A stretch of 64,000 bases of DNA from Balneolaceae bacterium (lineage in GTDB: Bacteria; Bacteroidota; Rhodothermia; Balneolales; Balneolaceae), in assembly GCA_017795005.1 (NCBI GenBank), contig CP051242.1, positions 1,302,001 to 1,366,000 on the forward strand, in the 5' to 3' direction. A program made the position numbers and the translations under genes. The notes under the pieces are model-generated. The model had not been told where the DNA came from. It searched no databases and saw nothing but the letters and a program-made list of their open reading frames with translations. The number at the start of each line of letters is the position of its first letter. The stretch's first letter is position 1. Positions 6,651 through 46,680 of this stretch are shown here, piece by piece.

Positions 6651-9413
6651 TTATTCACTCTTTAAACTCTTTACAGGATTTTGGGAAGCTGCTTTTACAG
6701 TTTGAAAGCAAAGTACTATCCATGCCAGAACTATCGCTGAAATTCCTGAGATTAAAAATATAATTGGGTTGATCTGAATTTTGAATGAAAAATTCTCGAG
6801 CCAATCTTTCATCAACATCCACGAAACAGGGGTGGAAATTATGATGGAAACGAGGATTAGCCTCAAAGTATCTTTGGAAAGGAGAAATACTATTCCGGAT
6901 GCAGACGCTCCCATAACTTTGCGGATTCCGATTTCTTTAGTTCGCTTTTCTATCGCAAAAGAAATAAGTCCTAACAGACCTAATATGGCTATAAATATGG
7001 CAAGTCCTGTGAATATACTTACCACCTTAGCAATTCTCTGTTCTGCCTGATATTGTATATATAACTGATCATCTAAAAAGGTGAATTCAAAAGGTAAGCC
7101 ATTGGTCATACTATTCCATTTCTCTTCAACGGAGCTTAGGAATGGAGTAATGTTTGTATTTGGTGATATTCTGGCTGAAAGGAAATGGTTTGGCCCTTTG
7201 AATACTTCAGAGTTTTCGTGAAAGAAGGCCATGGGTCCAATTTCTGAATGGAGTGATATAAGATTGAAATCTTTTACCACCCCAATTATTTCAAAAGGAT
7301 CATCAAGTCCGCTGTAATAGAAAGTCTCTCCTAAAGGAAAATCTGGTCCACGATCTAAGCCCTCGGGCCATGGGAGTTGATCAATAGCTGTTTCATTTAT
7401 GATTACATAATTGGAATTAGCCTCTGAATAGTCGGAAAATTCCTGCCCCTTAATGAGTTCAAAATTTAAGGTGCTGATGTAATCTGAATCTACAATTAAA
7501 GAATTAAGCGGTATGTCTTTATCACTTCCATAAACCCGTGCAAAATCTTCATTGTAAATATATGGTGGAACAGCATTGGACTTCCCGACAGAAAGTACAC
7601 CTGATTCACTTTCAATAAGCTGCTTAAAGGTTTCGGATTGATCTCCAAGCTTCATCACATTTTTAACTATCAGTACATTTTCTTTATCAAAGCCCAGATT
7701 TTCGTTTTGCAGATAATCAATTTGCTGGTAAATAATCACACTGCATGAAATCAGCATTATCGATATCGCAAACTGAAGAACAACCAATGAATCTCTCAAT
7801 CCATTAAATGATAATTTGTTATTAGTAAGAGCAGCAGTTTTTCCTTTAAATGCTTCAATTGGATTGAAAGAGGTAAGAAAAAATGCAGGGTAAAGACCGG
7901 CAAGAAAACCAATGAGAATAGTGAACCCAATGATATAGAGCAGATTGTAAACAGTAAATAATTCTGAAAACATCAGGTTTTTAGCTGCAATCTGATTGAA
8001 TGGATCAATGGACATATATACCAAAAAAAGCGACAGAATTAATGCCACAAAACTGAACAACATGGCTTCTGATAAAAACTGACCTATTAGAGAAGATTTT
8101 GATGAGCCAAGAGTTTTTCTGATCCCCACTTCTTTTGCACGGTGAACGGACCTTGCTGATGCCAAATTCATAAAATTTATGCTGGCTAAAACGATAATCA
8201 GTAACACAATACTTGAGAACACATATACATAAAAGATATCGCCTACGGCACTAAAACGATTACCTGAATCATTTATATTCAGATAAATATCGGTTACAGG
8301 TGTTAAAAAGAGCTCATAGTTTTTCGGATTTCCTTTGGCTGATTGTTCATCAATGCCAAATACAGGATAGATTTTCGCTTCTGCATAAGCTGGAATGGAT
8401 GCATTAAGTTTTTCCTGAAAGGAGGGGAAGTATACATTCTCATTAAGTAACACATAGGTTACAAAAGTGGTCCAAACCCAGGTATTTTCTCTTTTTTTCA
8501 CATTTGGATTGGAAGTTAATGAACTTAATAAGTCGAAAGTGAAGTGTGAGTTTTCCGGGAATTTTTCAACTACCCCGGTAATTTGGTAACTGACTTCTTC
8601 TCCGGGATTTCCCAATAAAATGGATTTACCCAATCCGGGTTCATTCTCAAAATATTTTTCTCTCGTGTCATTAGTAATCACAACCGAATAGGGTAGCGAG
8701 AGAGCACTTTCCGGGTTTCCTTCAATGAATTCCATAGAGAAGACATCAAAAAAAGTAGAATCGGCTGACAAAAATCGTGGCTCTACAAAGTATTGAGCTT
8801 CACCTTGATCCGATACGATAGTCACTAATCCATCTACCACACTTTGCAACCTGACCGTTGTTTCTATTTCCGGGAAGTCGGCTTGGAGCGTTGGTGCTAC
8901 TCCTGGACCGGTAGATGAGAAATACCCATTGAAGTCAGACCAAATCAAGGTTTGGTCAACTCGGTAAATTCTGTCTGAATGTTCATGAAAGGTATCATAG
9001 CTAAGCTCATTTTGAACAAACAAAAAGATAATGAGGCAGGAAGCCATTCCAATTGCCAGTCCGGAAATATTGATAAAAGAATAACCGGGTTGTCGTTTAA
9101 AGTTTCTTAGAAAGATTTTTAAAATATTTGGCAGTAACTGAGGAATCCACCAACTTGAAAACCATTTTGATTTCGGTTCATGAGAGACACTTGTAAAACG
9201 GTATTCTTCCAGAGTATCTTCAAACCCTTTTTCTATCTCTTTTGAAGCCTTTTGAAAAGCAGCTTTTTCATCCAGTCCTTCTTCAAGTAGTGCGTCGATA
9301 GAGTCATATAAATGATTTTCCAGTTCACTAATATCTCCGGGCTCAAGCTGAGTATACTTGTTCAGCTTTTGCTTCCAGTTTTGAATCTCGTTTTCTAAGT
9401 TAAAATCAGACAT
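6651..9413 (-). CDS. FtsX/MacB-type ABC transporter permease with N-terminal prefix domain
   Basis: I chose ATG 9413 (MSDFNLENE, 920 residues) because AAAGGAAAG sits 5 bases upstream. An in-frame start at 9443 would add ten residues deep inside padR. Residues about 1-65 form the charged, helical permease-prefix domain found in ADOP-type permeases. The rest has two MacB-like halves: TM1 near 115, a periplasmic core, TM clusters near 400-520, and a second set near 550, 790, 840 and 885. RAKEVGIRKTLG and RTKEIGIRKVMG are the paired FtsX motifs. The start overlaps padR by 8 bases (ATGTCTGA), so PadR probably controls it. No ATPase gene is nearby. Family members move lipids, peptides or drugs; the substrate here is unknown. 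Confidence 0.9.
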   Translation of the reverse strand: MSDFNLENEIQNWKQKLNKYTQLEPGDISELENHLYDSIDALLEEGLDEKAAFQKASKEIEKGFEDTLEEYRFTSVSHEPKSKWFSSWWIPQLLPNILKIFLRNFKRQPGYSFINISGLAIGMASCLIIFLFVQNELSYDTFHEHSDRIYRVDQTLIWSDFNGYFSSTGPGVAPTLQADFPEIETTVRLQSVVDGLVTIVSDQGEAQYFVEPRFLSADSTFFDVFSMEFIEGNPESALSLPYSVVITNDTREKYFENEPGLGKSILLGNPGEEVSYQITGVVEKFPENSHFTFDLLSSLTSNPNVKKRENTWVWTTFVTYVLLNENVYFPSFQEKLNASIPAYAEAKIYPVFGIDEQSAKGNPKNYELFLTPVTDIYLNINDSGNRFSAVGDIFYVYVFSSIVLLIIVLASINFMNLASARSVHRAKEVGIRKTLGSSKSSLIGQFLSEAMLFSFVALILSLFLVYMSIDPFNQIAAKNLMFSELFTVYNLLYIIGFTILIGFLAGLYPAFFLTSFNPIEAFKGKTAALTNNKLSFNGLRDSLVVLQFAISIMLISCSVIIYQQIDYLQNENLGFDKENVLIVKNVMKLGDQSETFKQLIESESGVLSVGKSNAVPPYIYNEDFARVYGSDKDIPLNSLIVDSDYISTLNFELIKGQEFSDYSEANSNYVIINETAIDQLPWPEGLDRGPDFPLGETFYYSGLDDPFEIIGVVKDFNLISLHSEIGPMAFFHENSEVFKGPNHFLSARISPNTNITPFLSSVEEKWNSMTNGLPFEFTFLDDQLYIQYQAEQRIAKVVSIFTGLAIFIAILGLLGLISFAIEKRTKEIGIRKVMGASASGIVFLLSKDTLRLILVSIIISTPVSWMLMKDWLENFSFKIQINPIIFLISGISAIVLAWIVLCFQTVKAASQNPVKSLKSE

Positions 9414-15758: not shown

Positions 15759-16751
15759 TTAAAAGCGCCATGTTATTGAAAGAGATTCGCTGCGCATTAA
15801 ATTTGCCTGAGTTTCAATTCTGCTGTTTTTCAGTGTTACTGTAAAATATGCGTCAAAAGCTGAAACCACATGATTTAATAACATAAGCCTTAATATGTTC
15901 CCTGCTTGTCGATAATTGTCGTTGAATTCTGCTGCGAGAAAAGTGCCCCGGTCAAATAGGGTTGTTCCCATGGCAGGATTCCATGAATATTGGAATTGAT
16001 TTGCACTCGCTTCGGGGTTTGAATAAAAAGCACTGTTAGATTCATAGAAATCTCTCCAACCCGGCACAAACTGGTAGTATTTACTCATCAATTCATAGTA
16101 CTGTTGAGAACCATAATCCTGAACAACATGAGAAAAACCACTTCCAACCCGATCCGGGTAAATAAAAGGAGTTCTTACTTCAACTGCTCTGATATCATTT
16201 AAATCTACTTTTCTCCAATCGTTTTTTGCATCGATCCAATCTGGCTCTTCACCAAATACCTGTTCCTGTAATCCTCCCGGATTATCAAATCCGTTATCGA
16301 TACTATTAGCCCTTGAATAAGCAACTAACCATTGACCATAGGCCACTACACTCCAGTTTTGATTCGCATAACGTTCGTAATCGCGTTCATTTCTTTTGGC
16401 AGTATTAGTTCGGTTTATATAGTAGAGAATGCTGGCTACATCCACTAAAAAGTAGGCAGCTGCCCGCCCCCATTTACCATTCATAGCCTGACCAGAACCT
16501 GGAATAATTGCAGATGAAAGCATGGCAATACCTGCTTTACTTTTTGCCGCCTCTACATATCCATTACTTTCATAGTTGAATTCTGATTGAGGGATATATC
16601 TAAAATCCTGAATAGTCGGGAAATCAGCTTCATATTTTGCACTGGTATCACTAATAGTTATAAATCCGGGATATGATTGAGAAACAGTTTGGCTCCGTGT
16701 TGAAGCTAAAGGAAACAAAAGAATCGAAACTGAAAGGATTATTTTTCTCAT
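15759..16751 (-). CDS. exported DUF5683-like protein of unknown function
   Basis: The 330-residue protein has a signal peptide (about 1-20). A segment with SSAIIPGSGQAMNGKWGRAAAYFLVDVASILYY-type features (about 78-112) resembles the small-residue and hydrophobic motif of DUF5683 family envelope proteins. Its C-terminus ends in SLSITWRF, which is barrel-like. The ATG overlaps the stop of the 1124-residue gene by 4 bases, so the two are probably made together. I do not know its function; an accessory role for the propeller/barrel partner is a reasonable guess from the overlap alone. Confidence 0.6.
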   Translation of the reverse strand: MRKIILSVSILLFPLASTRSQTVSQSYPGFITISDTSAKYEADFPTIQDFRYIPQSEFNYESNGYVEAAKSKAGIAMLSSAIIPGSGQAMNGKWGRAAAYFLVDVASILYYINRTNTAKRNERDYERYANQNWSVVAYGQWLVAYSRANSIDNGFDNPGGLQEQVFGEEPDWIDAKNDWRKVDLNDIRAVEVRTPFIYPDRVGSGFSHVVQDYGSQQYYELMSKYYQFVPGWRDFYESNSAFYSNPEASANQFQYSWNPAMGTTLFDRGTFLAAEFNDNYRQAGNILRLMLLNHVVSAFDAYFTVTLKNSRIETQANLMRSESLSITWRF

Positions 16752-19700
16752 AACAGCTCAAAATCAAAGGTTAAGCCAAAATGGAAGAGAAACTCCCTGC
16801 CGTAAGTAACTCTGTTACTTTGTGATCCGGTAACAAAATCATCAGGAAGGGTTAATGAAAATTTATCAAATCCATACGACGCACTTACAAAGAAACGAAG
16901 TGGGAAAAGATAGTAACCACTACTTGCTAACCGAAGCTCAGCGCCGATTCCCTTTTTTATATTCTTTCCGGAATCAAGTAAATCTGGATTATTTTTAGCG
17001 GCTTCATTTGGATACCAACCATTTCCTGCTTCAAAAAAGAACCGGGCGTATAACTTGTCAAAGGTATAAGGACCAATTTGGGTGTTCATATCTTTCACAA
17101 TTGGGGTGAACCAACTCAAACTTGTAAATGCGGTTGTATTACCGGCAATTGCAAAGAATGGATAACTTCTCATTCCCAAAAAACCACCGATATAATCGGA
17201 GAAGAAAGAATCGTCAGGTGTATTGAAGTAACTAAATCCTCTAACTCTTGCCTGAAAAGCCTGACCACCAAATGTTCTAAATCCATATCTCAGATGAAGC
17301 TCTGTAGAATGATTTTTAGTGCTTTTAAAAATTGGAATCAATGATCCGTCTTTAATTTCATATTCCTCTAACAACTTTGAGGGTTGGTACTGATATCTCA
17401 AATATCCTTTCAACCCAATAGGTGCAATATCGCCATCGGTAGAAAATTCGTAGTAATCAAACGTATAGGAAGCGGATAAGGTAGTGGCTTTATAATACTG
17501 AGAAGATGATCCGGGGATAAGAGTTCTTAACTCTCGGGAGAAGAAGTTATCTGTTTGAACGGTATATGGAGAATATCCAATGCCGAGTTCAAGAAGGCTA
17601 CGTCTGCTAAGTTTACTTCTGAAGAATAAATTGGCTTCCCAAACTTCATATCCAATATCCACATAAGAAGTATCAGGAGTACATGAAGTACAGGGAAATT
17701 CCTCAATGGAAAGACCGTCATCTACATTTCTATGAAGGTTATATACTTCAACAGATACAGTAGGAGACCAGCTTTTTTTAATAAAAGGGAGTCCGCGGTA
17801 TTCGGCTATGAAGAAGACATCTCTGTCTAGTTTGAATAATCGATTTGGTTGGAAAAACCCGCCAATGCTTTCTGCTTCTCTGGATGCAACACCCAGCATA
17901 ATTCCTCCAAAGATACTTAACTTATCGAGTACATCACGAGACGCGAAATAAATACCCGGTTTAATATCTCTGAGAAGGTTTTCTCCTAATTTTCCGACCT
18001 GTCCGTTTTTCAATAAAGTTCCATTCTGTCCATTTGACTTCGTGTAGTTATCAAACCTAAGCACAGGAAAGAAAGAAAAGCTGGTGAAGGTATCTTCGTA
18101 AGGTCGATAAACCCGTTCGTTTGAAGCCTGTTCAGAATCAATTTCGAAATGATAGCTTCCGGTATCTGCCACTGCATGTGCATCAGCTGAAAAATGATTT
18201 AAATCTTTATCGTCAAATTCGTTCAGATAACTTACAGTAGGTATGGAATCAGGGTCAAAAGAGAATTCAGGAATAACAGGATCATAGCTTCCGGTACCCG
18301 GATTTGAAATTAAATTACGTATTCCAACGCTTTTAATTTTATATCCATCAGCTTCATATTCTGAAAAGTAAAGTTGATTGTTATCTACTTCTGGCATAAA
18401 GGCACCACCAAGAACATTGGTTAGTCGATCCGGAGAATCTGACCCAACAGGTTTTCGGTAAATATTGAAGATACCCCCGATATCTGCGGAGAAGTAAAGG
18501 AATTCACCATCCGGACTTACAGCTGGATCTCTGTAATCAATAAACTCACTTTCAAATATGGTTGATATTTCTTTGCTGTCAATATCAACTGAGTATAAGT
18601 TTCGGTTCCAGTAATCGGCCATTGCATAATAAATAGTATTACCATTTGGGTGCCATGATGGTGTGAAAATAGTCTCTCCGTGCTCGAATGTAGTTAAAGT
18701 TACAATTTCAGATGGATTATCAGGATCAAAAGTAACCAGGTTTTGAGTTCCGGATTTATATTGGATTGCAGCAATGGTTTTTCCATCCGGACTCCACATG
18801 GGAGATTCAATTCTGGCACTATGTGTAAGTCGGGTGATCTCAGAATTTTCAATGTCGAACAAGAAAATATCCCGGTAAAATTCTCCAAACTTATTTTTTT
18901 TATTTACTGCAAAAGCAATCTTGCTTCCATCAGGAGAAAATGAGAATGAGGTACTTAATACAGAAATAAGCGGTTTTAAGGCATCAGCATGATTATGGTG
19001 TGTATGTAATGTTCGCTCCTCAATTTGAGCGATTTCTGTTTCCTCACCATCTTTTTTGAGGTATAGTGAAAGTAGAGAGTAGTCTTTTCCACGATTAGAG
19101 ATATATGCAACGGCATCCCCATTCGGAGATCTCTTTGGGAAGAAATTGAAGAAGCCTTCTTTTTCGATATAGTCTGAAGAAGTAACTTCCATATTAGAAG
19201 TTGATTCAGAATAGAAATCTTTTCTCTCTTTAATCCAATCCTCAAAAACCTGAGTTCCGGAAATTCCGGTTGCTATCTCAATTCCTTCTTCAACAATATA
19301 GACTCCTTTTTCGCCCATTGCTTCCGAGATTCTGCGGAGAACATCTTCTCCAAATCGTTGTACCAGATAAATAACGAATGCATATCCCTGATTATAAACC
19401 GTTTCTCTTTCAAGGCTGTTTTTTGATGAGAATGTGCCCATTTCAGTCAGACTAAAATATGTATCGCTCATGATTCTGGTTCTCAAAATCATATCCCGAT
19501 GGCTGTCCCAGGTATCATATAATAAACCTGCCCGTTGATATTGTGCTGTACCTTCTGCAAACCATGCCGGTATGTTTATTGAAGCAAATGGAAGGGATGC
19601 AATTCCGTTTGGGAATCCATACAATACATCCGGTCGTCGGACTTTTTCATAGGAAAGCCACTGTAAGTATAATGCCGGATATTTTCGTTGGCGTTTTAAG

Positions 19701-20122
19701 GCAGATTGAATTTGAACGATATGGACAAACTCGTGTGAAATTACATTTCTAAGCCAGTTATGAGAACCACGCAATGGAGTATCAAGGGAAGGGAGCCAGA
19801 TATCGATTTTATTGTCAAAGAAATAAGCTGCTCCGTTTGAATAATCTTCCCGGTCTTTAAGTACTATACTCACCTTTTCATCAGGCTCATACATATAAAG
19901 AGAGGTAATTGGTCCATAAATTTCTTCAGCAATCCTTGAACTTACCTGTGCAGAACGACTATTTCCTTCCTGAAAATGGACGATAAAATGGTCACTCTCT
20001 ATTGAAAACCATTTCAAATGATTTTGTGGGTAATCGTAGAACTGCGGATCTGTTTGAGCAAAGGCAGTAACACTAAAGCCGATGGAAAGAAGTAGCAGAA
20101 GATATATGTTAAACCGTTTCAT
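16748..20122 (-). CDS. gluzincin-like peptidase / WD40-like propeller / outer-membrane barrel protein
   Basis: This 1124-residue protein has three modules after a signal peptide (1-22). First is a peptidase-MA-like domain with HEFVH at 130-134 and the third ligand Glu in AEGTAQY at 190, so the zinc site looks intact. Second is a TolB/DPP-IV-type beta-propeller (about 330-640) with repeated FSPDGSKIAF, WSPDGKTIAAI and VSPDGEFLYFS strands. Third is a C-terminal Omp85/surface-antigen-like barrel (about 690-1124) with GMRSYP near 1000 and a terminal Leu-rich strand. Databases usually name such proteins Tol biopolymer transport homologues. The start overlaps the previous stop by one base. It is likely an outer-membrane protein with periplasmic or surface enzymatic activity. 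Confidence 0.8.
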   Translation of the reverse strand: MKRFNIYLLLLLSIGFSVTAFAQTDPQFYDYPQNHLKWFSIESDHFIVHFQEGNSRSAQVSSRIAEEIYGPITSLYMYEPDEKVSIVLKDREDYSNGAAYFFDNKIDIWLPSLDTPLRGSHNWLRNVISHEFVHIVQIQSALKRQRKYPALYLQWLSYEKVRRPDVLYGFPNGIASLPFASINIPAWFAEGTAQYQRAGLLYDTWDSHRDMILRTRIMSDTYFSLTEMGTFSSKNSLERETVYNQGYAFVIYLVQRFGEDVLRRISEAMGEKGVYIVEEGIEIATGISGTQVFEDWIKERKDFYSESTSNMEVTSSDYIEKEGFFNFFPKRSPNGDAVAYISNRGKDYSLLSLYLKKDGEETEIAQIEERTLHTHHNHADALKPLISVLSTSFSFSPDGSKIAFAVNKKNKFGEFYRDIFLFDIENSEITRLTHSARIESPMWSPDGKTIAAIQYKSGTQNLVTFDPDNPSEIVTLTTFEHGETIFTPSWHPNGNTIYYAMADYWNRNLYSVDIDSKEISTIFESEFIDYRDPAVSPDGEFLYFSADIGGIFNIYRKPVGSDSPDRLTNVLGGAFMPEVDNNQLYFSEYEADGYKIKSVGIRNLISNPGTGSYDPVIPEFSFDPDSIPTVSYLNEFDDKDLNHFSADAHAVADTGSYHFEIDSEQASNERVYRPYEDTFTSFSFFPVLRFDNYTKSNGQNGTLLKNGQVGKLGENLLRDIKPGIYFASRDVLDKLSIFGGIMLGVASREAESIGGFFQPNRLFKLDRDVFFIAEYRGLPFIKKSWSPTVSVEVYNLHRNVDDGLSIEEFPCTSCTPDTSYVDIGYEVWEANLFFRSKLSRRSLLELGIGYSPYTVQTDNFFSRELRTLIPGSSSQYYKATTLSASYTFDYYEFSTDGDIAPIGLKGYLRYQYQPSKLLEEYEIKDGSLIPIFKSTKNHSTELHLRYGFRTFGGQAFQARVRGFSYFNTPDDSFFSDYIGGFLGMRSYPFFAIAGNTTAFTSLSWFTPIVKDMNTQIGPYTFDKLYARFFFEAGNGWYPNEAAKNNPDLLDSGKNIKKGIGAELRLASSGYYLFPLRFFVSASYGFDKFSLTLPDDFVTGSQSNRVTYGREFLFHFGLTFDFELL

Positions 20123-23100
20123 TAGTGCGCGACTCCAATTTTGACCAGTTTAGATTCGCTTTTTTCACCAACGGTCGCTTTTACTTTTGCAAAATAAGCA
20201 CCGCTTCCCCAATCAGCAGTTGATATAAGGATTTCTTCCGGACCTCCACCGGTAGCTTGCACTGTTCTTTCAAAAACAATTCGTCCAGAATAATCGATAA
20301 CGGTAATCTCAACAGTTCCGCCGGGAGACTCTACTTCAAAACGAAGATTAGTTTCTTCATCAGCCGGGTTTGGCCAGTTATAGGTTTCTTTAGTATTAAG
20401 TATACTAAAACTGTTTTGGTTCACTTCGCTTATATTTATATAAGCAGATACCTTGTTATATGGATTTGAGCCGTAGCGTGAAGGCCATTGTGAAGAAGTA
20501 TAGTTCTCAAATCGCCATGCCTTTAAATCTCCGACATGACTAATAGCATACAACTTGTCCTCATAAAGAACAGGGTGAATCGGTTGTATATCTTTTCCAA
20601 CTGCTCCTCCAACATATAAGGGAAAACCTGAAATAGGTTCTCCGGTAGTTTCGTAAGCAAAAATATTTACAGAATATTCATCCTGACCAACAACAAGGAT
20701 GTCCTGGGTGTTGTCTCCTGTTATATCTGCAATAAGCGGAGTGCCTATAAATTGAATACCATCTGGTGCAATGATTGGAGTATTAGGAAGTAAAGCACCG
20801 TTTAAATTATATCCTTCAATGCTACTTTCAGAACGATTAACTCTGTAAATGAATCCTTCATCAACAATTGCAGGCCATTCAGCTTTATCTTCTTCAAATA
20901 TTTGAGTGAAGGGTTCTTCCATAGAAGGATTTACTATTGTGAAGGTTCCATCTTCAAAAAGATAATATAGGTTCCCGTTATTGGTACTTATGGTTCCTGC
21001 AAAAAGTCGCTCGGTTGCATTTGAGATATAATTCGGAATGTTTTCACCTACAAAAGAAACCGTATTTCCATTAATACCAACAAAATTACTATTTATGATT
21101 TCGGAGCGGAATTCATATCCGTAGGTATTTTGAATTATCGAACCATCCGAGGTATCAATCGAAGTATTCGTAAAATCAAGCTCAATAACAGAGCCATCCT
21201 GAGAACTTATAAAAGCAGTATTTGGCTGAGTTGTTGATTGCCAGGCTGAGTTCGTTTTGAGATCAATTCCTCGTACAATCATCGAATTATTAAAAGAAAG
21301 TGGATTAGTTCCAATAATAATTCTGTCCAAAACTAATGGTTGTTGGTATAAAAATTGACCAAAACTAACTCCTGCGTTTGGATTCGGATCGGAATAATCA
21401 TATAAATAAACATCATTTGCACCTGTAATAACCAATGTGGTATCTGATTGGGCTTGATAAACTGCTATGCCGAGCGGAAAGTAATCCAAAAAAGAGGAAA
21501 TGAATTGTTCATCAGGTTGTTGAATAGAAATTATTTCCTCAAAACCGAAATCCTGTGAGTCTGTTGCCCTAACTTTAAAGCTGGCTTGAGGTAAATTTTC
21601 CGAGAAGTCATAAAACTCGAAAAAAGATTTTGCTCCAGAATTGCTGTTATTATTCGGATAGGTCTCTGGTCCAAAAACATTATTAGGATTCAGATCAATA
21701 CTTCCACCTTGAGTGATTACCCGATAATCATTTCCTGACCACCAAAAATCATAAGCAAATCCAAAGACAGGGGAGTTATCTAACAACCCAACATCAAGTC
21801 CAATATCCTGAGCTCCGTCGCCTTCCTCTAAATCCACGCCTCGTCTTTGAGGATCTATATTTACTCTTCCACTTTCTAATTGCTGATTTATAACAGATTC
21901 ATCGATATGCCAAATCAATATTCCACCATTTAAAAGTCTGTCATCGTCTGTGCCTTCTCTTTCGTCTGCGCCAATATCAATTCCACCTGGAAGACTCCAG
22001 TCGAAGTTACTTACATCTATGATAGTACCTACATCTAGTAGGCTGTCAAATCCAAGTTCCTGAAAAATGAAAGCTTCATCTTCATTTGTGAATGTTTTTT
22101 GTACTTCAGATCCATCAGGTTGTCTTGTTGTGATGACTACACCAGTCCCGTTTATGTCACGGTGCCTGTTTTCAATCAGAAAATATTCAGTAGAGGAAAG
22201 TTCATATTTTGCAATACTATTCGGATCATTTCCAGATCCTACGGGTAGTTCAATACTAGTCGAGATAGTATCACTTATGATAAAGGGAGTTTCCCATCCC
22301 AGAAATATTTTCTCCCATGCAGATGGTTCCGGAGGAATAAGTCCGTTGTATCCAAAAAAACCGGCGCCATCCATTAATCCAAAACGACCAATAGCAGGTT
22401 CTCCGGTTTCAGTATTAAATAAGTCGGGCAGGCCTAAATGACTTCCGATAGAAGCACATAACAAACCATTAATTGAAAGCGGAAATACAATCTCGTTTTC
22501 CGAGATATCTTCACCTCTGCGAGATTCGGTTCTTGGGATAATCATGGAATTCTTTATTCGAAAAGCACCATTATTTATAGAAAAACCATCAAAATCATTT
22601 CCAAGCCACTGCTCAAGATCAGCTTCTCTCATATAAATAGAGGGGATATCGAAAGGGGTGATATCAAGGCTGGTTCCTGTAAGTTCTACATCTCTTCCAA
22701 CTCCGGCATGAAATACAACAAATGCAGTGCTATCCGGATCTAATCCTGTTGCATCAAATCCTCCTGAGTTCTCTACTGTTGCCCACACATCCTGAAGAAA
22801 TAAAGCCAGTTTTTCGGTTGTAAAACTTTCACCAATTGGAGAATATTCTTCCATTCGCTTTTCTAACTGATAAACAGTGGGAAGAACCTGATATTCTATA
22901 GAGAGTTGTCCGTCGGAAGATTTGTCAAAGTAATTCTTAGCGAATTCCAGATGCGCTTCGAAATAGTGCTGATTATGAGGTAGGGGGTCTATATAAGTAA
23001 TTTCCTGTCTGGATAAATAGGGGAGACCTTCCATACCGTTTACGCCAAAAATTCCTGTACCTGAGGTTAGGCGGTTGTCATCCTCCTGAAACTCAACCAT

Positions 23101-23277
23101 TATTGCGACAATATTAAGGGTGCCAACAGCAGGGGCTGCTTCAAATTTTGGGATTGGTTTCGAAATCGCATGAGTTCTCCGTAACTCAAATTCTTGAGCT
23201 GAAGAAGAGTAAACAAATAAAAAGAGCATGTTTACCAAAACGAACATGCTCTTTAAAATAGCAGATGTGGATTTCAT
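20122..23277 (-). CDS. M6-like (immune inhibitor A) protein with degenerate active site and T9SS tail
   Basis: The 1051-residue exported protein (signal 1-27) follows the M6 peptidase layout up to about residue 340. The catalytic HExGH is replaced by ASIGS at 275-279, immediately before the conserved LGLPDLF (281-287). Thus both zinc-binding His and the catalytic Glu are gone. The rest includes other M6-domain landmarks such as ENRH and WHIDES. A propeller-like region of unknown ligand follows, then a C-terminal T9SS type A sorting domain (about 970-1051, with NWPNPADEETNL and GSGAYFAKV). It should be exported by the T9SS as a binding or structural protein rather than a protease. It lies 4 bases after porV. 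Confidence 0.82.
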   Translation of the reverse strand: MKSTSAILKSMFVLVNMLFLFVYSSSAQEFELRRTHAISKPIPKFEAAPAVGTLNIVAIMVEFQEDDNRLTSGTGIFGVNGMEGLPYLSRQEITYIDPLPHNQHYFEAHLEFAKNYFDKSSDGQLSIEYQVLPTVYQLEKRMEEYSPIGESFTTEKLALFLQDVWATVENSGGFDATGLDPDSTAFVVFHAGVGRDVELTGTSLDITPFDIPSIYMREADLEQWLGNDFDGFSINNGAFRIKNSMIIPRTESRRGEDISENEIVFPLSINGLLCASIGSHLGLPDLFNTETGEPAIGRFGLMDGAGFFGYNGLIPPEPSAWEKIFLGWETPFIISDTISTSIELPVGSGNDPNSIAKYELSSTEYFLIENRHRDINGTGVVITTRQPDGSEVQKTFTNEDEAFIFQELGFDSLLDVGTIIDVSNFDWSLPGGIDIGADEREGTDDDRLLNGGILIWHIDESVINQQLESGRVNIDPQRRGVDLEEGDGAQDIGLDVGLLDNSPVFGFAYDFWWSGNDYRVITQGGSIDLNPNNVFGPETYPNNNSNSGAKSFFEFYDFSENLPQASFKVRATDSQDFGFEEIISIQQPDEQFISSFLDYFPLGIAVYQAQSDTTLVITGANDVYLYDYSDPNPNAGVSFGQFLYQQPLVLDRIIIGTNPLSFNNSMIVRGIDLKTNSAWQSTTQPNTAFISSQDGSVIELDFTNTSIDTSDGSIIQNTYGYEFRSEIINSNFVGINGNTVSFVGENIPNYISNATERLFAGTISTNNGNLYYLFEDGTFTIVNPSMEEPFTQIFEEDKAEWPAIVDEGFIYRVNRSESSIEGYNLNGALLPNTPIIAPDGIQFIGTPLIADITGDNTQDILVVGQDEYSVNIFAYETTGEPISGFPLYVGGAVGKDIQPIHPVLYEDKLYAISHVGDLKAWRFENYTSSQWPSRYGSNPYNKVSAYINISEVNQNSFSILNTKETYNWPNPADEETNLRFEVESPGGTVEITVIDYSGRIVFERTVQATGGGPEEILISTADWGSGAYFAKVKATVGEKSESKLVKIGVAH

Positions 23278-23281
23278 TCCA

Positions 23282-24424
23282 TCAGAAGTTCAGGAGTACA
23301 CTAAATCGTAATGTATTTGCTAACGGATGATCAGACTCTAATGTTTTGATATAACTGAAATCTATTCCAAAAGAGTTATATCTAAGACCGGCACCAAATG
23401 TGATGTATTTTCTGTCTCCATTTTCTGGGTCTTCGTAGTAGAATCCACCTCTTAATGCAAAAAGATTGTTGTACCAATATTCAGCTCCGGCGCCAATCAT
23501 GAATTGTTGCATGAGGCTTAGTTCTACATTTTCCTGACCATTAAATCGTGTATAAGGCCCCCATGATTCAAATAAAGCCTGAATGGGACCTACAGCTCTA
23601 TATTCTGTTATGGTAGAGTCTGCACTTGGCACTTCAAATGCTTCATTTCGGGCCATAATTTTTGAAACATCAGAGGCAATGGTAATCCGGTTAAATCCTT
23701 CAGGATCTAAATCATAATCCAAAGCAATACCAAATCTTAGAACAGTAGGAAGCGGATCCTTTTGGGCATTGTCGGTATACTGAATAGCCGGCCCCAAATT
23801 GGATAGGTTCAGACCAGTACTGAATCTGGCTTTATTTGCACCAATATAAAATGGATCACTTTTGTAAAGGTAAGAAAGGTCGAGCGCAACACTGTTTCCG
23901 GGATTTACTTTTTGAGCATCCACCTCGACACCATTAGCTAAACTTGAGTAGATTACTCTAAGTCCGGCTCCTATAGCAAGATTATCATTTACCGGAAAGC
24001 CGTAAGAAAGCCCAACTGCAACCTCATAACTGTTGAATCGGGAAAGTAAATTATTCGCTCCGTCTCTGTTTTCCTGCTCGCCCAAATTCAGAAAAGTAAT
24101 ATGTCCACCAATGGTACCAATTCCTTCTACATAGTATTTCCCTACTAAATAATCATAGAAAAGGTCACTTACGTTAAAATTGGCTAACCAATTAGAGTGA
24201 GTTATACTGATTTGGTTATCCTTTTGGAAAGCCAGCCCCGCCGGGTTCCAAAACATTGCAGCTGCATTATCAGCGATAGCAACCCCAGTGTTACCCATTG
24301 CGGCGCCTCTTGAGTCGGGTTCAATTTGCAGGAAAGGTACGGCGGTAATACCTATTTGTGCATTCGAAACTGCAGGAAATACGAATAGCGAAATTGCTAT
24401 TGCTAACAAATATACTTTTTTCAT
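23282..24424 (-). CDS. porV: type IX secretion system outer-membrane protein PorV
   Basis: The 380-residue protein has a signal peptide (1-22) and the PorV/LptO hallmark at the mature N-terminus: FLQIEPDSRGAAMGNTGVA and WNPAGLAF (about 30-66). A FadL-like 14-strand barrel pattern follows, ending FSVLLNF. PorV shuttles T9SS cargo from the translocon to the PorU sortase by binding its C-terminal domain. It lies 61 bases downstream of porU on the same strand, which matches the usual porU-porV order in Bacteroidota. Length is normal. Confidence 0.93.
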   Translation of the reverse strand: MKKVYLLAIAISLFVFPAVSNAQIGITAVPFLQIEPDSRGAAMGNTGVAIADNAAAMFWNPAGLAFQKDNQISITHSNWLANFNVSDLFYDYLVGKYYVEGIGTIGGHITFLNLGEQENRDGANNLLSRFNSYEVAVGLSYGFPVNDNLAIGAGLRVIYSSLANGVEVDAQKVNPGNSVALDLSYLYKSDPFYIGANKARFSTGLNLSNLGPAIQYTDNAQKDPLPTVLRFGIALDYDLDPEGFNRITIASDVSKIMARNEAFEVPSADSTITEYRAVGPIQALFESWGPYTRFNGQENVELSLMQQFMIGAGAEYWYNNLFALRGGFYYEDPENGDRKYITFGAGLRYNSFGIDFSYIKTLESDHPLANTLRFSVLLNF

Positions 24425-24485: not shown

Positions 24486-27400
24486 TTATCGGATTATTAC
24501 GAGCTTTTCGATTTTCTCGGTTGTTTTTCTTCCTTCGGGGGTATCTGTTGCAACCCGAAGCACATAAATATAAGTACCGTTACCCAGGCGATCATTATCC
24601 CTGTCACGGCCATTCCATGGAATACTGGCATAAGAACTTAGTGTATTACTTGATGGTATGTATTCTTCAATACGGTGTACAGGTTTACCACTTAAGGTGT
24701 AAATATGGATATCTACATCCAGTGGATTTCCCTGTTGATTATGTTCGAACGTAAAGGAAGTAGCATTATTCATGGGATTTGGATAGTTATAAACCTTCTC
24801 AACTATTAAATCTTCATGATCAGCCACCTGAAAAAAAACTTCTTGTTCAGACGGATTGTTATGCACATCCCATGCACGAACTTTTAGTGCGTAGTTACCT
24901 TCCGGAATATCTTCCAGCGGGTACTCGATACGCCCACTCGTATAATCATTTAAAGTGCCCTCGAAAAAATCGTTGAGCACAAAGGTTTTTTGTGGTTTTG
25001 TATCGATTGTAGCAATTATTTCATGTCCTACTCCTGTTCCTGTAGTGTTAATTCCGGAGCTATCGCTAAGCTCCACGAATAGAGTTGGGGAGTTATTAGC
25101 AAGACTCCCATTTATAAAACTTTGATCATTAAGATAAACATCTAAAAAGGGTCCCTTTCCATCATTAATCGCATTTGAGTTAATCCCATTAAATATGATA
25201 TCCCGATAAGTTCCTCCTGCTGTGATTTGGCCATTTTTTGCATAAACGACAATTCGGCCTTTGTTTTCAGAAAAACTGATATCCTTTGGTATTATAAAAG
25301 TGACGGAATATTCTCCATTTTGTGCGAGGGTTTTGCCCTTAAAAAGAACATCATTTTCTACTTCATAGGTACACTCTTTACTAGTATTTTGATTTAAGTA
25401 GCAATCGTCTGGTTCTTCTAACCAAACCCGATCGGATGGAATACTAACCGTGCGGGGTGCATCAAAAAGAGTAATAGAAACTTCACCGTTGAAGTCCGCT
25501 TCAATATTTCCATTTTGATTTCGGATTGCCCCGTTAATAGTAACCTGATCAAGAGCTTTAACAGTAAGCACAGTATCTTCAGTATTAATATCTATTCCAT
25601 TAATAGATTCTATACGTGCTTCCTTTTCCGGAAAAGCAAATTGCAGGGCCGGGTCTCCAAGTAGAATGAACTTTCTATTATTTGTCTGAGAACCAACACT
25701 TGTATTTTTGGTGCGAAGATATATTTCTCCAAGAGTAAGAGGTTCTCCATTTTCATCTCTCTCAATCATATTTTGAGAAAGCTCTATGTTTAGTCCATAA
25801 TTAAGTCCATTTGGACTTCCGCTTGTATAAACTACCCTTGTAGTAGTAAAGCTGGCTATTGCACCTCCATTATCTGCAAAAACGAGTTTCTCTGCTCCAG
25901 ATTGAACATTAATATCATCATACCTTCCAAACTGGCAGGTTGCAGTAACAAAAAGAGTAAGTCGGTTTCGGTTAGTAAACTGTGACACATATTCTGAACT
26001 ATATAACTCTTCATCAGTCAAATTCTGGGCATTACCATGTCCGGAATAATTCATCACTAAAGTGCCTGAATTAATCGTATTTATAAAATCGTTTGTTGCT
26101 CCCGGAAGTTGACGTCCAGCACCTGTTATTTCTTCAGGATAATCAAAGAGGTAGATTTTTTTAGCTCTTCCTCCTGCATTTTCGAGATTCATTCTTCGAA
26201 GGGTTCCATCAGCATTTTCAACATGTAAATCTCTGTTGCTTTCGGGCTCAGGAAGATCATCATCAGCTGCAAAAGTAAATAGGTTCTGCCAGTCACCATC
26301 ATTATCAGGATTCTCATACCTTTTGATTTTATCAATAGCTATTGCTGCCTCACTCCTGGTTTGAGCTGAAATCCGACCTATTCCGAGATCAACTCTCGCA
26401 GAACTATTCAGAACTCCTTCCGAGTCATCCATTAAGCCAAAAAAATCATCGCTTCCGAATGAATTAGTTCTGTGAATGGATTCTGAAGTTTGATAGGTTA
26501 ATACATGATTGGTGAAAGAATTAGAGACGATATTTTTTGTGTCGTATGTGGTATCTCCAAAAAGCAGTAAATACTTTGGAGGAAGTTCCCCATCAGTAAC
26601 AGCCATATCCCAAAGATGTTTTAGGAAGTCTCTTATTGCAGTAGGATCTTTTACTCCGGATGAAAATTCATTCAGTATTTGATTTTGAGTAACTACTAAA
26701 GGAGTTAAGCCACTTTCACTTCGATGTGATGCCAATTCCTGAGCAAAATCAAGAAGTTGTTCTGATGTGACTATAATATAGTCCGGGTAAGAAGTGTTAC
26801 CGTGAAGATTTTGATTAGCAACTTGTTCACCCATTTGCGGGGTCCAAAGATTCGATTGTACAATAATTTGATTATCAGGATTTGAATTATAGACTAGACT
26901 ATGAATGGAACCTGAGCTACTTACTTCCAAAAGTTTTGGTTGAACAGGATTTGTAACATCCATTGCAAATGGCGTGCTGGAGAAACCAGTCATTCTATAA
27001 TCTGCAATTTCATTTTCAGAACCATCATTAGGAGAAAAAAAATAGAGTTGATTATTCTTTGCTGTTAATTGTCTTCTTACAACGAATCTTAAATAATCAA
27101 TAAAAGCATTCGCACCGGAGTCCGTATTTTTCATCATCAGGTCTAATTCAAAAATGCCGTTTTCGCGATTTTGTTGAACTGGTAAATTTCCAAAGAAAAA
27201 CCTTCTGGCTGATTCATGCTCATATGAATTGTAGTCGCTGGTAAGTCTGGAAATAGTAAAGTTTTGAAACGACTCATCGTTAAAGTTCATCTCAAAAGAG
27301 GTAGAAGTAGTTGATCTAAGATAAATTTGTCCGGAAACAAAGATGGGTGTATTTGTATCAATATCAGGTAAAGTATCCCGAAAAATATTAACGAATTGAT

Positions 27401-28388
27401 TTACTGAAGCAGCCGAAATGGTTTGACCCAGCCAGAAGCGTCCTGATTTTTGTCTTGTTTCAGTTTTTGTTAGCTCTTCCTCTTTCCATATAAAATCATC
27501 AAATGAAGTTATAGTTCTGGTAGCATTTAAGCCTGAATTCTGAACAGTTAAACGTTCACCGGTGGAGTTTCCGATAGTGAGAAATACATACACATGTTCA
27601 CTATAAGGGTGAAGAATTTGACGGAATGAAGTTCCAACACGGGTTTCCTGATGAGGACTATTCCCGTAGAATATCACACGGTCTGAAGGGTCAAAACTGC
27701 CATCTGATTCGCCCTGAACTATAATGGGGATTTGTGAAAACTCAGGTCTTACGTCGCTATTGTTTTCAGATAAAGGTAATCCACCAGTTCCCCAAAGTTG
27801 GATATTTCTTGGATCAATTTGATCTAAACTTACTCCCAGATCCGATAAGTAATTGGCATCTAACTGATAGATTCCATTATTAGTAATTGGAATTTTAAAC
27901 CATGCACCACTTGCTAAAGGGTGGTCTTCAGCTGCAATATTTTTTTTGAGTACAGATGTTGATGGAACTTCTTCAGTTACATGATATAAACGAAAGCGGA
28001 TTTTTGTAGTATGAAAAACAGCATCTGAAGAGAAACGGGTCATATGTATTTTAAGCGAGGCAACTTCTTTACCTCTGTAAAATCCGGATTCCAATACTTC
28101 TGCTACGGGGCTTTCAGAAGAACTTAAATTAAGGGCTATTTTTTTTGATTCAGATAAAGGTTCATTATTGGTTATTACTGATTGATCTAAAATCGAATAT
28201 TTTGCAACTCCATTTTGAACAGGAATCATAAATTCATAGGGAGGATAAATCCCTAAATCAGAATTTGTAATCTCGTAGTCAGTGTATTCAAGAGTGGTAA
28301 CAAGTTTCTTTAACTCCTGCGCTTTAGATGCACCGCTAAAAAGAAAGAAAATCAAGAAGAGGGTGATATATGAAAACCTTGGAAGCAT
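24486..28388 (-). CDS. porU: type IX secretion system sortase PorU
   Basis: The 1300-residue protein (signal 1-23) is a C25 gingipain-type cysteine peptidase. The catalytic pair is H784 in NYSGHGNAQN and C818 in VTATCQFGRYDD, 34 residues apart as in gingipains. N-terminal beta domains (about 30-530) precede the peptidase domain (about 545-910). C-terminally there are Ig-like domains and a FlgD-like segment (about 1210-1300, NYPNPMNNATSF). PorU cleaves the T9SS C-terminal signal at the cell surface and attaches cargo to lipopolysaccharide. It heads the minus-strand operon that runs to rpe. A consensus promoter lies about 190 bases upstream of its ATG. Confidence 0.95.
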   Translation of the reverse strand: MLPRFSYITLFLIFFLFSGASKAQELKKLVTTLEYTDYEITNSDLGIYPPYEFMIPVQNGVAKYSILDQSVITNNEPLSESKKIALNLSSSESPVAEVLESGFYRGKEVASLKIHMTRFSSDAVFHTTKIRFRLYHVTEEVPSTSVLKKNIAAEDHPLASGAWFKIPITNNGIYQLDANYLSDLGVSLDQIDPRNIQLWGTGGLPLSENNSDVRPEFSQIPIIVQGESDGSFDPSDRVIFYGNSPHQETRVGTSFRQILHPYSEHVYVFLTIGNSTGERLTVQNSGLNATRTITSFDDFIWKEEELTKTETRQKSGRFWLGQTISAASVNQFVNIFRDTLPDIDTNTPIFVSGQIYLRSTTSTSFEMNFNDESFQNFTISRLTSDYNSYEHESARRFFFGNLPVQQNRENGIFELDLMMKNTDSGANAFIDYLRFVVRRQLTAKNNQLYFFSPNDGSENEIADYRMTGFSSTPFAMDVTNPVQPKLLEVSSSGSIHSLVYNSNPDNQIIVQSNLWTPQMGEQVANQNLHGNTSYPDYIIVTSEQLLDFAQELASHRSESGLTPLVVTQNQILNEFSSGVKDPTAIRDFLKHLWDMAVTDGELPPKYLLLFGDTTYDTKNIVSNSFTNHVLTYQTSESIHRTNSFGSDDFFGLMDDSEGVLNSSARVDLGIGRISAQTRSEAAIAIDKIKRYENPDNDGDWQNLFTFAADDDLPEPESNRDLHVENADGTLRRMNLENAGGRAKKIYLFDYPEEITGAGRQLPGATNDFINTINSGTLVMNYSGHGNAQNLTDEELYSSEYVSQFTNRNRLTLFVTATCQFGRYDDINVQSGAEKLVFADNGGAIASFTTTRVVYTSGSPNGLNYGLNIELSQNMIERDENGEPLTLGEIYLRTKNTSVGSQTNNRKFILLGDPALQFAFPEKEARIESINGIDINTEDTVLTVKALDQVTINGAIRNQNGNIEADFNGEVSITLFDAPRTVSIPSDRVWLEEPDDCYLNQNTSKECTYEVENDVLFKGKTLAQNGEYSVTFIIPKDISFSENKGRIVVYAKNGQITAGGTYRDIIFNGINSNAINDGKGPFLDVYLNDQSFINGSLANNSPTLFVELSDSSGINTTGTGVGHEIIATIDTKPQKTFVLNDFFEGTLNDYTSGRIEYPLEDIPEGNYALKVRAWDVHNNPSEQEVFFQVADHEDLIVEKVYNYPNPMNNATSFTFEHNQQGNPLDVDIHIYTLSGKPVHRIEEYIPSSNTLSSYASIPWNGRDRDNDRLGNGTYIYVLRVATDTPEGRKTTEKIEKLVIIR

Positions 28389-44001: not shown

Positions 44002-46680
44002 GTGATACTAATACACATGAAATGGGAAGCACCCCTAAAAGAAATTGTAAATGGATATTATAAGGTGCAGATTGGACTTAGTAGTTTTCTATATTATGTA
44101 CTAATCAAAGAAATAAAGTCAGCCACAGTTTTGCTCATAAAGCAATTTTTACTGTCATTTTTAATAATTCTCACTTTTAGCCAACAAGCACTAAGAGCAC
44201 AGCAATTTACTGTTGCTCCAGAATCGGGTTTTTACAATGATTCTTTAATTGTTGAAGCTATTTTTGATAATAGTCTGATCGTTTATTATTCAGTAGATGG
44301 TTCACTGCCTGATACATCTGATTTTTTTTACAAGAATCCGGTAACTATCAGAAATACTAAAGCAATTCGGTTTGTTGGGTATACTTCAGACTTTCAAGAT
44401 ACCATTTATATAAACAGATCTTATTTTATAAATGAGGGCACTGAACTTCCCGTATTTTCTATTATTACAGATCCCGATAATTTATTTTCAGCTGAAAGAG
44501 GAATTTATGTAGAAGGTATAAATGGTATTCCGGGATATTGTCGGGAAACTCCTAAAAACTGGAATCAGGATTGGGAGCGTCCGGCTTACTTTGAGTTTTT
44601 TGAGAAAGATAGGAGTGAAGGATTTAAAATTCATGCAGGTATTAAAATCGGGGGAGGTTGTACCCGGTTATACGACCAGAAATCGTTGGACATTTTTTTC
44701 AGAAGTGAATATGGAGCCAGTAAACTGGATTATCCGGTTTTTGAAGACAAACCTTTCAAAGAATTTGACCGTCTTGCATTAAGAAGTGGGGGACAGGACT
44801 GGTACAGAGCTCTTATCAGGAATGCAGCTGCACAATCAATTGTAAAAAACAGAATGGACCTTGGTTATCAGGCTTTTAAACCTGTAGTAGTTTTTATCAA
44901 TGGAGAATACTGGGGTATACACATGCTCAGGGAGAAACAAAATGAGGATTTTATAGAGTCGAATTATGGCTTTGATGAAAATGAATTAGATATACTTAGT
45001 GGTGGTAGTGCTAATGTTAAAGAAGGAAGCGCAGATCATTACAATGCAATGTTAGATTATATCCGGGAGAACGATATTTCTGAGAAGGAGCATTATGATT
45101 GGGTTTCCACTCAGATGGACATTGACCAGTATATCGATTATTACATCGCCCAGATTTACATGGCAAACGGTGATTGGCCTGCAAATAACATCATTTTATG
45201 GAGACCACAGCAACCTAATGGAAAATGGAAATGGTTGATGTATGATGTGGATATGTCGATGGGAAGTCATTCCAGAGGAGTATCGAGTACAAATATCCTG
45301 AAAAAACTTACTACAACAACAAGCACTCCTTATGAAAGCCCTCCAACGGCTACTTTTTTGTTTCGAAACCTGATTAAGAATCAGGAGTTTGTGAACACAT
45401 TAATTCAAAGATACAGTATGCATATGCACAGCACTTTTAAACCGGAAAGAATGCAGTTCTTTGTAGATAGTGTCGCAGCTATTATCGAATCAGAGATACC
45501 TGCACATGGTGCCAGATGGGAAAAATCTATGTCTTTGGGCTCAGGGATGAATTGGGAAAAACATCTTAACCTGATAAAAAACTTTATTGATCAACGACCG
45601 GTTATGGCAAGATCTCATCTATACGATTTATTTGATTTGGTAAGGCTACATAGTGTGAAAACGAATATTGAACCGACCGGAGCAGGTGAAGTATTTATAG
45701 AAGGAGTCAGAGCAGATGAACTTGAATATGGATTAATTTATCAAACGGTTCCCTTTGAACTTAAAGCAGCGGCCAAACCGGGATATACCTTTACAGGCTG
45801 GAGTGGAGATGTCACAGGATCAGAGCATTCGAAAGAGCTTAGCATTACAAAAAACTCTGTACTCACCGCTCATTTTAAGAGAAATGAAATAACCATATCA
45901 GGAGTGGTTATTAATGAAATCAATTATCGCTCTGCTGATACCTTTAATCCTGAGGATTGGGTGGAGTTTTATAATAACTCTGGACAGGTAGTAGATATGT
46001 CCGGATGGTATTTTTCGGATTCGGATAATACTCATCGGTTTACTTTTCGGGAAGGAACCATTCTTGATCCGGATTCTTATTTAGTGCTTACCCAGGATAG
46101 TTCTTTATTCAGTCCATTATTTCCTGAGGTTCAGAACAGAATCGGGGATATGGACTTTGGGTTATCGGGAGATGGAGAGTTAGTCAGACTATTCGACGAA
46201 TCAGGAAATATTATTGATGAGCTGACTTATAATGATAAATCTCCCTGGCCCATAGAACCAGATGGATTAGGTGCAACGCTTTCCTTATCTAATCCGGGTT
46301 TTGATAATTCCAAAGGTAAAAACTGGGCGGCCTCCAATGGAAATGGGACTCCCGGAAGAATGAATGAAGGTATTTTTGTAGGCAATGAAAGTAAAAATGA
46401 ATACAATGACCGTGCAACAGGGGTGAGCCTTTATCAAAATTACCCGAATCCATTTAATCCTGAAACAATCATAGAATATAATCTGGGTCAACCTATGTTT
46501 ATTAAACTAAGCATTTTTGATTTGCAGGGAAGAGAAGTAGCAATCATTGAACAAGGAAGGAAGTCATCGGGATTACATCAGTCAATCTGGAACGCGTCCG
46601 AATTCGCTTCTGGAGTATATTTTTACAGACTTGAAGCGAATGGTTTATTTATAAATCGAAAACTTACGTTGATTAAATAG
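44002..46680 (+). CDS. CotH-kinase/lamin-tail protein with T9SS sorting tail
   Basis: Modules in order: a signal peptide, a chitobiase-C-like bridge (VYYSVDGSLPD, about 95), a CotH kinase domain (about 145-540, with WGIHMLREKQNEDF and LMYDVDMSMG), an InlB-like repeat (PGYTFTGWSGDV), a lamin tail domain (about 630-740), and a T9SS type A tail (about 805-892, YQNYPNPFNPE). The start is uncertain. GTG 44002 and ATG 44017 leave about 45 extra residues, whereas TTG 44131 begins an ideal signal peptide (MLIKQFLLSFLIIL). CotH-domain proteins phosphorylate protein or surface targets. As T9SS cargo this one would be surface or secreted. It is divergent from the cytochrome peroxidase gene. Confidence 0.88.
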   Translation: MILIHMKWEAPLKEIVNGYYKVQIGLSSFLYYVLIKEIKSATVLLIKQFLLSFLIILTFSQQALRAQQFTVAPESGFYNDSLIVEAIFDNSLIVYYSVDGSLPDTSDFFYKNPVTIRNTKAIRFVGYTSDFQDTIYINRSYFINEGTELPVFSIITDPDNLFSAERGIYVEGINGIPGYCRETPKNWNQDWERPAYFEFFEKDRSEGFKIHAGIKIGGGCTRLYDQKSLDIFFRSEYGASKLDYPVFEDKPFKEFDRLALRSGGQDWYRALIRNAAAQSIVKNRMDLGYQAFKPVVVFINGEYWGIHMLREKQNEDFIESNYGFDENELDILSGGSANVKEGSADHYNAMLDYIRENDISEKEHYDWVSTQMDIDQYIDYYIAQIYMANGDWPANNIILWRPQQPNGKWKWLMYDVDMSMGSHSRGVSSTNILKKLTTTTSTPYESPPTATFLFRNLIKNQEFVNTLIQRYSMHMHSTFKPERMQFFVDSVAAIIESEIPAHGARWEKSMSLGSGMNWEKHLNLIKNFIDQRPVMARSHLYDLFDLVRLHSVKTNIEPTGAGEVFIEGVRADELEYGLIYQTVPFELKAAAKPGYTFTGWSGDVTGSEHSKELSITKNSVLTAHFKRNEITISGVVINEINYRSADTFNPEDWVEFYNNSGQVVDMSGWYFSDSDNTHRFTFREGTILDPDSYLVLTQDSSLFSPLFPEVQNRIGDMDFGLSGDGELVRLFDESGNIIDELTYNDKSPWPIEPDGLGATLSLSNPGFDNSKGKNWAASNGNGTPGRMNEGIFVGNESKNEYNDRATGVSLYQNYPNPFNPETIIEYNLGQPMFIKLSIFDLQGREVAIIEQGRKSSGLHQSIWNASEFASGVYFYRLEANGLFINRKLTLIK

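Follow-up and report, generated by a model that had tools for sequence, protein, structure and literature searches.

Gene organization at the locus

The window, a stretch of 64,000 nucleotides from the genome of a Balneolaceae bacterium, carries the gene order porU-porV-M6i-MApB-DUF5683. M6i and MApB overlap by 1 base, MApB and the DUF5683 gene by 4 bases. The features of this operon are listed below in the coordinates of the window, (-) indicating the strand.

24486..28388 (-), porU sortase (NF033707, 1058 bits, cut-off 420)
23282..24424 (-), porV (NF033710, 287 bits, cut-off 250)
20122..23277 (-), M6i ORF, 1051 aa: N-terminal hydrophobic stretch, M6 domain, beta-propeller and T9SS type A tail
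21556..23127 (-), M6-like domain of M6i, residues 51-574 (4yu5_A, Z 21.1; profile E 2.8e-6)
22441..22455 (-), codons A275-S279 of M6i, dead HExGH site reading ASIGS, in predicted helix 270-280
20509..21552 (-), beta-propeller of M6i, residues 576-923 (8bvq_B, Z 20.6; 8hmf_E, Z 20.3)
20140..20376 (-), T9SS type A sorting domain of M6i, residues 968-1046 (PF18962, TIGR04183)
16748..20122 (-), MApB: Peptidase_MA_2-like domain with HExxH...E, TolB-like propeller, BamA-like barrel
19721..19735 (-), HEFVH of MApB (H130-H134), with E190 at 19553-19555
16766..18109 (-), predicted Omp85/BamA-type barrel of MApB, residues 672-1119 (6fsu_B, Z 19.6)
15759..16751 (-), DUF5683-like protein, conserved downstream gene (21.9, below the Pfam cut-off of 26.7)

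The same order was found across Balneolota and Ignavibacteria-type genomes (Balneolaceae, Ignavibacteria, Melioribacter, Kryptonia and others). In the Balneolales contig L036, porV is split into two open frames (6654-7871), reflecting either an assembly error or a frameshift. Opposite M6i, a 124-aa ORF (22067-22441, plus strand) has its last base on the dead-site codons and is probably a mechanical ORF.

M6i is an M6-like protein with a beta-propeller and a T9SS tail

Over its full length, M6i matches the equivalog family NF052323, 'T9SS-dependent M6-like inactivated metalloprotease', with 1204.4 bits against a cut-off of 600 (model positions 2-1043 of 1043). The inactivated state is thus already catalogued, as the NCBIfam family name states the same inactivation. 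Kinship with the M6 peptidases stands on three matches: TIGR03296, at 49 bits and below its cut-off of 110.8; a sequence profile hit on 4yu5, an M6 peptidase of solved structure (E 2.8e-6); and the structural match to the same protein. The Pfam M6 family PF05547 did not match M6i, which is uninformative since it gave no match in control genomes either.

The AlphaFold2 model of M6i, built from 33 sequences, consists of three parts (pLDDT 80.3, pTM 0.80). In VIA-align, residues 51-574 superposed on 4yu5_A, an M6 metallopeptidase of the immune inhibitor A type, over 377 residues (Z 21.1, rmsd 3.2 A, 17% identity); 4yu5 was not among the top 50 Foldseek matches. In the propeller, rows for BamB led the structural matches, yet other propellers lay within 1 Z, and no likeness to BamB is claimed. 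Both sorting-domain models scored above their cut-offs at the C-terminus (PF18962, 31.2 bits for a cut-off of 27; TIGR04183, 31.9 for a cut-off of 23), so that the T9SS tail proposed in the earlier note is real. The window's own genome also encodes the T9SS core proteins PorU, PorV, PorZ and SprA. M6i thus has the sorting domain of a T9SS type A cargo, in a genome with the core genes, and its export and tail removal are predicted. Another T9SS cargo candidate is encoded elsewhere in the window (44002-46680, plus strand), an 892-aa protein with CotH kinase, lamin-tail and T9SS tail domains.

The catalytic site is lost throughout the clade and the replaced site is conserved

Residues 270-287 of M6i, translated from ORF 20122..23277(-), read NGLLCASIGSHLGLPDLF. 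ASIGS occupies positions 275-279 and HLGLPDLF follows directly behind residue 279. Two intact M6 sites were used for comparison, HEYGHDLGLPDLYD in Actinoplanes-type rows and HEFGHSLGF.DLYN in the Cloacimonadota rows of the alignment. Alignment with active M6 proteins placed A275, S276 and S279 at the H, E and H of HExGH, and in the AlphaFold2 model the dead site sits on helix 270-280. M6i therefore lacks all three residues of the HExxH zinc site of active M6 metallopeptidases. The earlier note had described this loss at 22435-22460, an interval that brackets codons 275-279 (22455..22441(-)), in a gene with the following motif intact and no stop; each of these statements was borne out, the 1051-aa frame being uninterrupted.

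The same substitution was sought in homologues. Not one of 100 aligned clade rows (91 distinct) kept H, E or H at the three positions. These rows comprise the window, 34 sequences from named contigs and 65 from genome searches (L057 being the window's own gene), and take in all 61 matching genomes of a 148-genome sample; L034, L035, L036 (a fragment without the site) and the Actinoplanes-type L038-L043 were left out of the count, and L044 gave no ORF match. Thus, a mutation of a single strain is ruled out. The commonest residue sets were A-S-S (51 of the 100 rows) and A-N-S (12), with A, S, G or N at position 275 and S, N or G at position 279. A fragment of M6i was also found on L033, a contig titled as a Methanosarcina MAG and probably mis-binned.

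N270, G271, P284, D285 and L286 are invariant among the 91 distinct rows. Since dS was mostly saturated, dN/dS was dropped and pN and pS were used alone. In four pairs, pN was 0.28-0.31 across the propeller and 0.10-0.20 across the M6 domain. It was 0.02-0.04 in the 42 residues surrounding the dead site, which showed the strongest conservation of all the parts compared. Judged from these sequences, the dead site is constrained and not drifting. The open frame and the constrained site rule out a pseudogene.

Only one histidine in the M6 domain, H190, reaches 85% or more within the clade, and the HEFGH-bearing rows have it as an invariant residue too. D196, E322 and D438 were gained in the clade without an accompanying histidine. 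Because the alignment columns of the clade's M6 domain hold no gained conserved histidine, a replacement zinc site is without support, and so is the possibility, raised in the earlier note as one that would overturn its reading, that another His/Glu set binds zinc. It is very improbable that M6i is still an enzyme, holding zinc through another residue set or using a different chemistry: H190, D285, D303, E364 and E369 are strongly conserved, but equally so in the HEFGH group, and no ligand is kept at the three catalytic positions.

With the loss spread over the clade, the replaced site itself conserved and the gene kept under constraint, the designation 'functional pseudoenzyme' holds. At the level of sequence, we conclude firmly that M6i is a pseudoenzyme, one predicted to be without zinc binding and proteolytic activity.

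MApB carries an intact peptidase motif

The gene behind M6i matches Peptidase_MA_2 at 34.1 bits (cut-off 32.4). H130, E131, H134 and E190 are invariant in 15 of 15 aligned sequences, HExxH is present in all 92 distinct MApB ORFs and HExxH...W[FL]AEG in 89 of them. The structural model is of moderate confidence (pLDDT 72.9). It matches a TolB-like propeller over residues 335-605 (3iax_A, Z 26.0) and a BamA-like barrel over residues 672-1119 (6fsu_B, Z 19.6, 319 residues aligned, rmsd 5.0; 8xnb_A, Z 22.3); an Omp85 barrel family was absent from the Pfam matches of MApB. The modelled arrangement, a TolB-like propeller ahead of a BamA-like barrel, resembles that of the WD40-Omp85 proteins of Heinz and Lithgow (PMC4104836), and the portion of that paper available to us mentions no Peptidase_MA domain before the WD40 part. 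In the same portion, the 'Metallo' Omp85 subfamily is defined by PF00149, another domain than that of MApB. MApB would thus be a candidate protease-bearing WD40-Omp85.

Relatives in Cloacimonadota and Delongbacteria

A full-length relative was found in 114 of 117 Cloacimonadota genomes. In the rows read, one form of it lies in a PorV-M6-DUF5683 locus, ordered as in the window minus MApB, and likewise combines an M6 domain with a propeller and a T9SS tail. It differs from M6i in its intact site and in scoring only 215 bits with NF052323, below the cut-off (one sequence checked, L169). HEFGH was kept in 27 of 27 rows examined of this PorV/DUF5683-side protein, rows that are no census and were taken from the best-scoring places and from 20 chosen stretches of the 114 matching genomes. 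Full-length MApB was found in none of the 117 genomes, six of which gave a propeller-only match. The earlier note would have been refuted by HExxH in most orthologues; this fails inside the clade, and it is outside, in the sister group, that the motif is kept.

Cloacimonadota also encode a second paralogue next to a PorQ-like protein (115 bits with NF033711, below the cut-off of 220; one checked), and 12 of its 13 rows have HQxxH. In the aligned sequences, this paralogue marks a second alteration of the catalytic site within the family, one that occurs without MApB. In L163-L167, L171, L173, L175, L177, L180 and L182, where the neighbour belongs to the PorQ/PorV family, Gln replaces the catalytic Glu or the site is altered further. 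All 13 Delongbacteria genomes have the homologue, and all 13 rows read xMxxH with N at the position of D285. MApB lies beside this homologue in 11 of 13; of the others, L162 ends before the gene and L161 has about 200 bases left.

After removal of repeated sequences (82 rows reduced to 77), the tree grouped the clade with Delongbacteria (support 99/96); the HEFGH group was their sister (95/82), and the HQxxH group branched outside. Its root is uncertain, the outgroup being very distant (branch 3.77). The lower-scoring L118 (G148), which showed no HExxH, does not figure in the later table or in the tree. The loss of HExxH and the gain of MApB map to one branch, and the HEFGH of the sister Cloacimonadota likely gives the direction of change.

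M6i co-occurs with MApB more strictly than with PorU

Of 148 genomes of the window's phylum, 61 carried both M6i and MApB, and none carried one without the other. The M6i matches of 57 of these genomes were above the NF052323 cut-off and those of four more lay at 358-388 bits; MApB was taken at E <=1e-60. In a sample of 394 genomes of the phylum drawn by a second search pair, which takes in the earlier matches, both proteins were found in the same 153 genomes, and comparison of the two lists by script showed them to be equal. The Fisher tests ignore phylogeny, and their values are not taken as probabilities. Joint absence was seen in 4 of 8 genomes of one genus (g6), and in G365 as against its congener G085.

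The two genes are unlinked in 15 genomes of several families: in G005 a distance of 0.86 Mb on a single contig separates them, and in the others they lie on separate contigs. Different contigs prove little in fragmented assemblies; G005, G137 and the two-contig G401 are the clear cases.

PorU scored above its cut-off in 103 of the 148 genomes. It was found in 57 of the 61 M6i genomes, and 46 PorU genomes are without M6i. The four M6i genomes without PorU (G061, G081, G108 and G119) have PorV, M6i and MApB in place, keep SprA and gave no PorZ match. Thus M6i is not always accompanied by the sortase, unlike what would be expected of a member of the attachment complex. Taken with the identical lists of M6i and MApB genomes, these four genomes indicate that M6i is tied more closely to MApB than to the sortase. 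Balneolota loci without porU, yet with porV, M6i and MApB, were seen in L112-L115 (from whole genomes) and in the named contig L005. A thiolase gene directly adjoins porV at the expected place of porU in L112, L113, L114 and L005; it was not seen at the L115 locus, also from a PorU-less genome.

Interpretation

Our best explanation, with a probability that we set near the midpoint between right and wrong, is that M6i is an exported non-catalytic partner of MApB and that MApB took over proteolysis. An active M6 enzyme would ancestrally have lain between porV and the DUF5683 gene, as it still does in Cloacimonadota. MApB would then have entered the operon behind this enzyme and taken over proteolysis in a catalytic hand-off, after which the M6 protein would have kept a binding or positioning role. 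Today's M6i would be a T9SS-exported pseudopeptidase of ancient origin, functional but no longer cutting. MApB, according to its model, would be an outer-membrane protein joining an intact gluzincin-type metallopeptidase to a TolB-like propeller and a BamA-like barrel.

This explanation starts from what was directly seen, namely the clade-wide loss of the site, the T9SS tail, the operon, the perfect co-occurrence, the intact motif of MApB and the syntenic HEFGH relative without MApB. From these we infer the partnership itself and, with it, contact between M6i and MApB, the location of both, which of them cuts what, and a causal hand-off. Several points speak against a partnership. An operon inherited as a unit can produce co-occurrence, and each joint loss may go back to one deletion. 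Since the loss of HExxH and the gain of MApB fall on one branch, the link between them is one coincidence in time and not a repeated pattern. The HQxxH paralogue of Cloacimonadota is altered without MApB, so inactivation does not need MApB. Finally, if the peptidase of MApB is periplasmic and M6i lies outside, the two would sit on opposite sides of the membrane.

The chief alternative, which we consider rather unlikely, gives M6i a structural role in the T9SS attachment complex: it would stay bound at the surface to PorV and aid the processing or anchoring of cargo by PorU, with MApB a mere operon neighbour. The order porU-porV-M6i in most loci is consistent with such a role, and PorZ (5m11) was among the Foldseek matches of M6i. 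In the accessible text of PMC8545088, PorZ and PorU of the attachment complex are surface proteins with a T9SS-type tail, and PorZ has beta-propellers too, a pairing of propeller and tail that M6i shares; both differ from M6i in having no M6 domain. Membership is weakened by the PorU-less genomes, where four of 61 M6i genomes have neither PorU over the cut-off nor a PorZ match and still keep SprA, PorV, M6i and MApB, and it also has to accommodate the 46 genomes with PorU and without M6i. Replacement of PorZ by M6i is ruled out: PorZ (PF21544) is present in 99 of the 148 genomes, including that of the window and most M6i genomes, so M6i is no substitute for it.

It is also improbable, in our estimate, that M6i is an ordinary T9SS cargo that binds surface peptides or glycans as an adhesin, scavenger or decoy, its co-occurrence with MApB arising from shared ancestry and joint deletion. 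Its tail is of the cargo type, its propeller evolves fast, linked genes are lost together, and the Fisher tests take no account of phylogeny. However, M6i and MApB persist together where they are unlinked (the 15 genomes of several families), and M6i stays beside porV over great distances.

Returning to a partnership of M6i with MApB, a bolder form of it, which we regard as tentative and doubtful, is that the two constitute an undescribed two-part outer-membrane machine with the pseudopeptidase as its obligate exported subunit, born by hand-off. Such a machine may take part in the maturation or quality control of T9SS or outer-membrane proteins; in lineages where PorU and PorZ have been lost, it may be solely responsible for surface processing.

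The inactivation itself is known; what appeared in none of the texts searched is the context of the dead protease: the operon order, the co-occurrence with MApB and the HEFGH sister locus. The name of the NF052323 model is silent on MApB, the operon, the HEFGH relatives and function, and a search of open-licence PubMed Central, mostly of titles and abstracts, gave no paper on the M6i-MApB pair or on the HEFGH sister locus.

Dead enzymes are usually found singly, and the reason for their survival is hard to see. Here, the dead form shares its genomic place, in different phyla, with a sister whose motif is intact and with a candidate for the enzyme that replaced it, which makes the path from enzyme to non-enzyme directly testable. 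The gene pair beside porU and porV further suggests an overlooked T9SS component outside the intensively studied Bacteroidia, in Balneolota and Ignavibacteria-type bacteria. Because the M6i-MApB pair is kept even where PorU is gone, it is relevant to the handling of cargo in the absence of the classical sortase.
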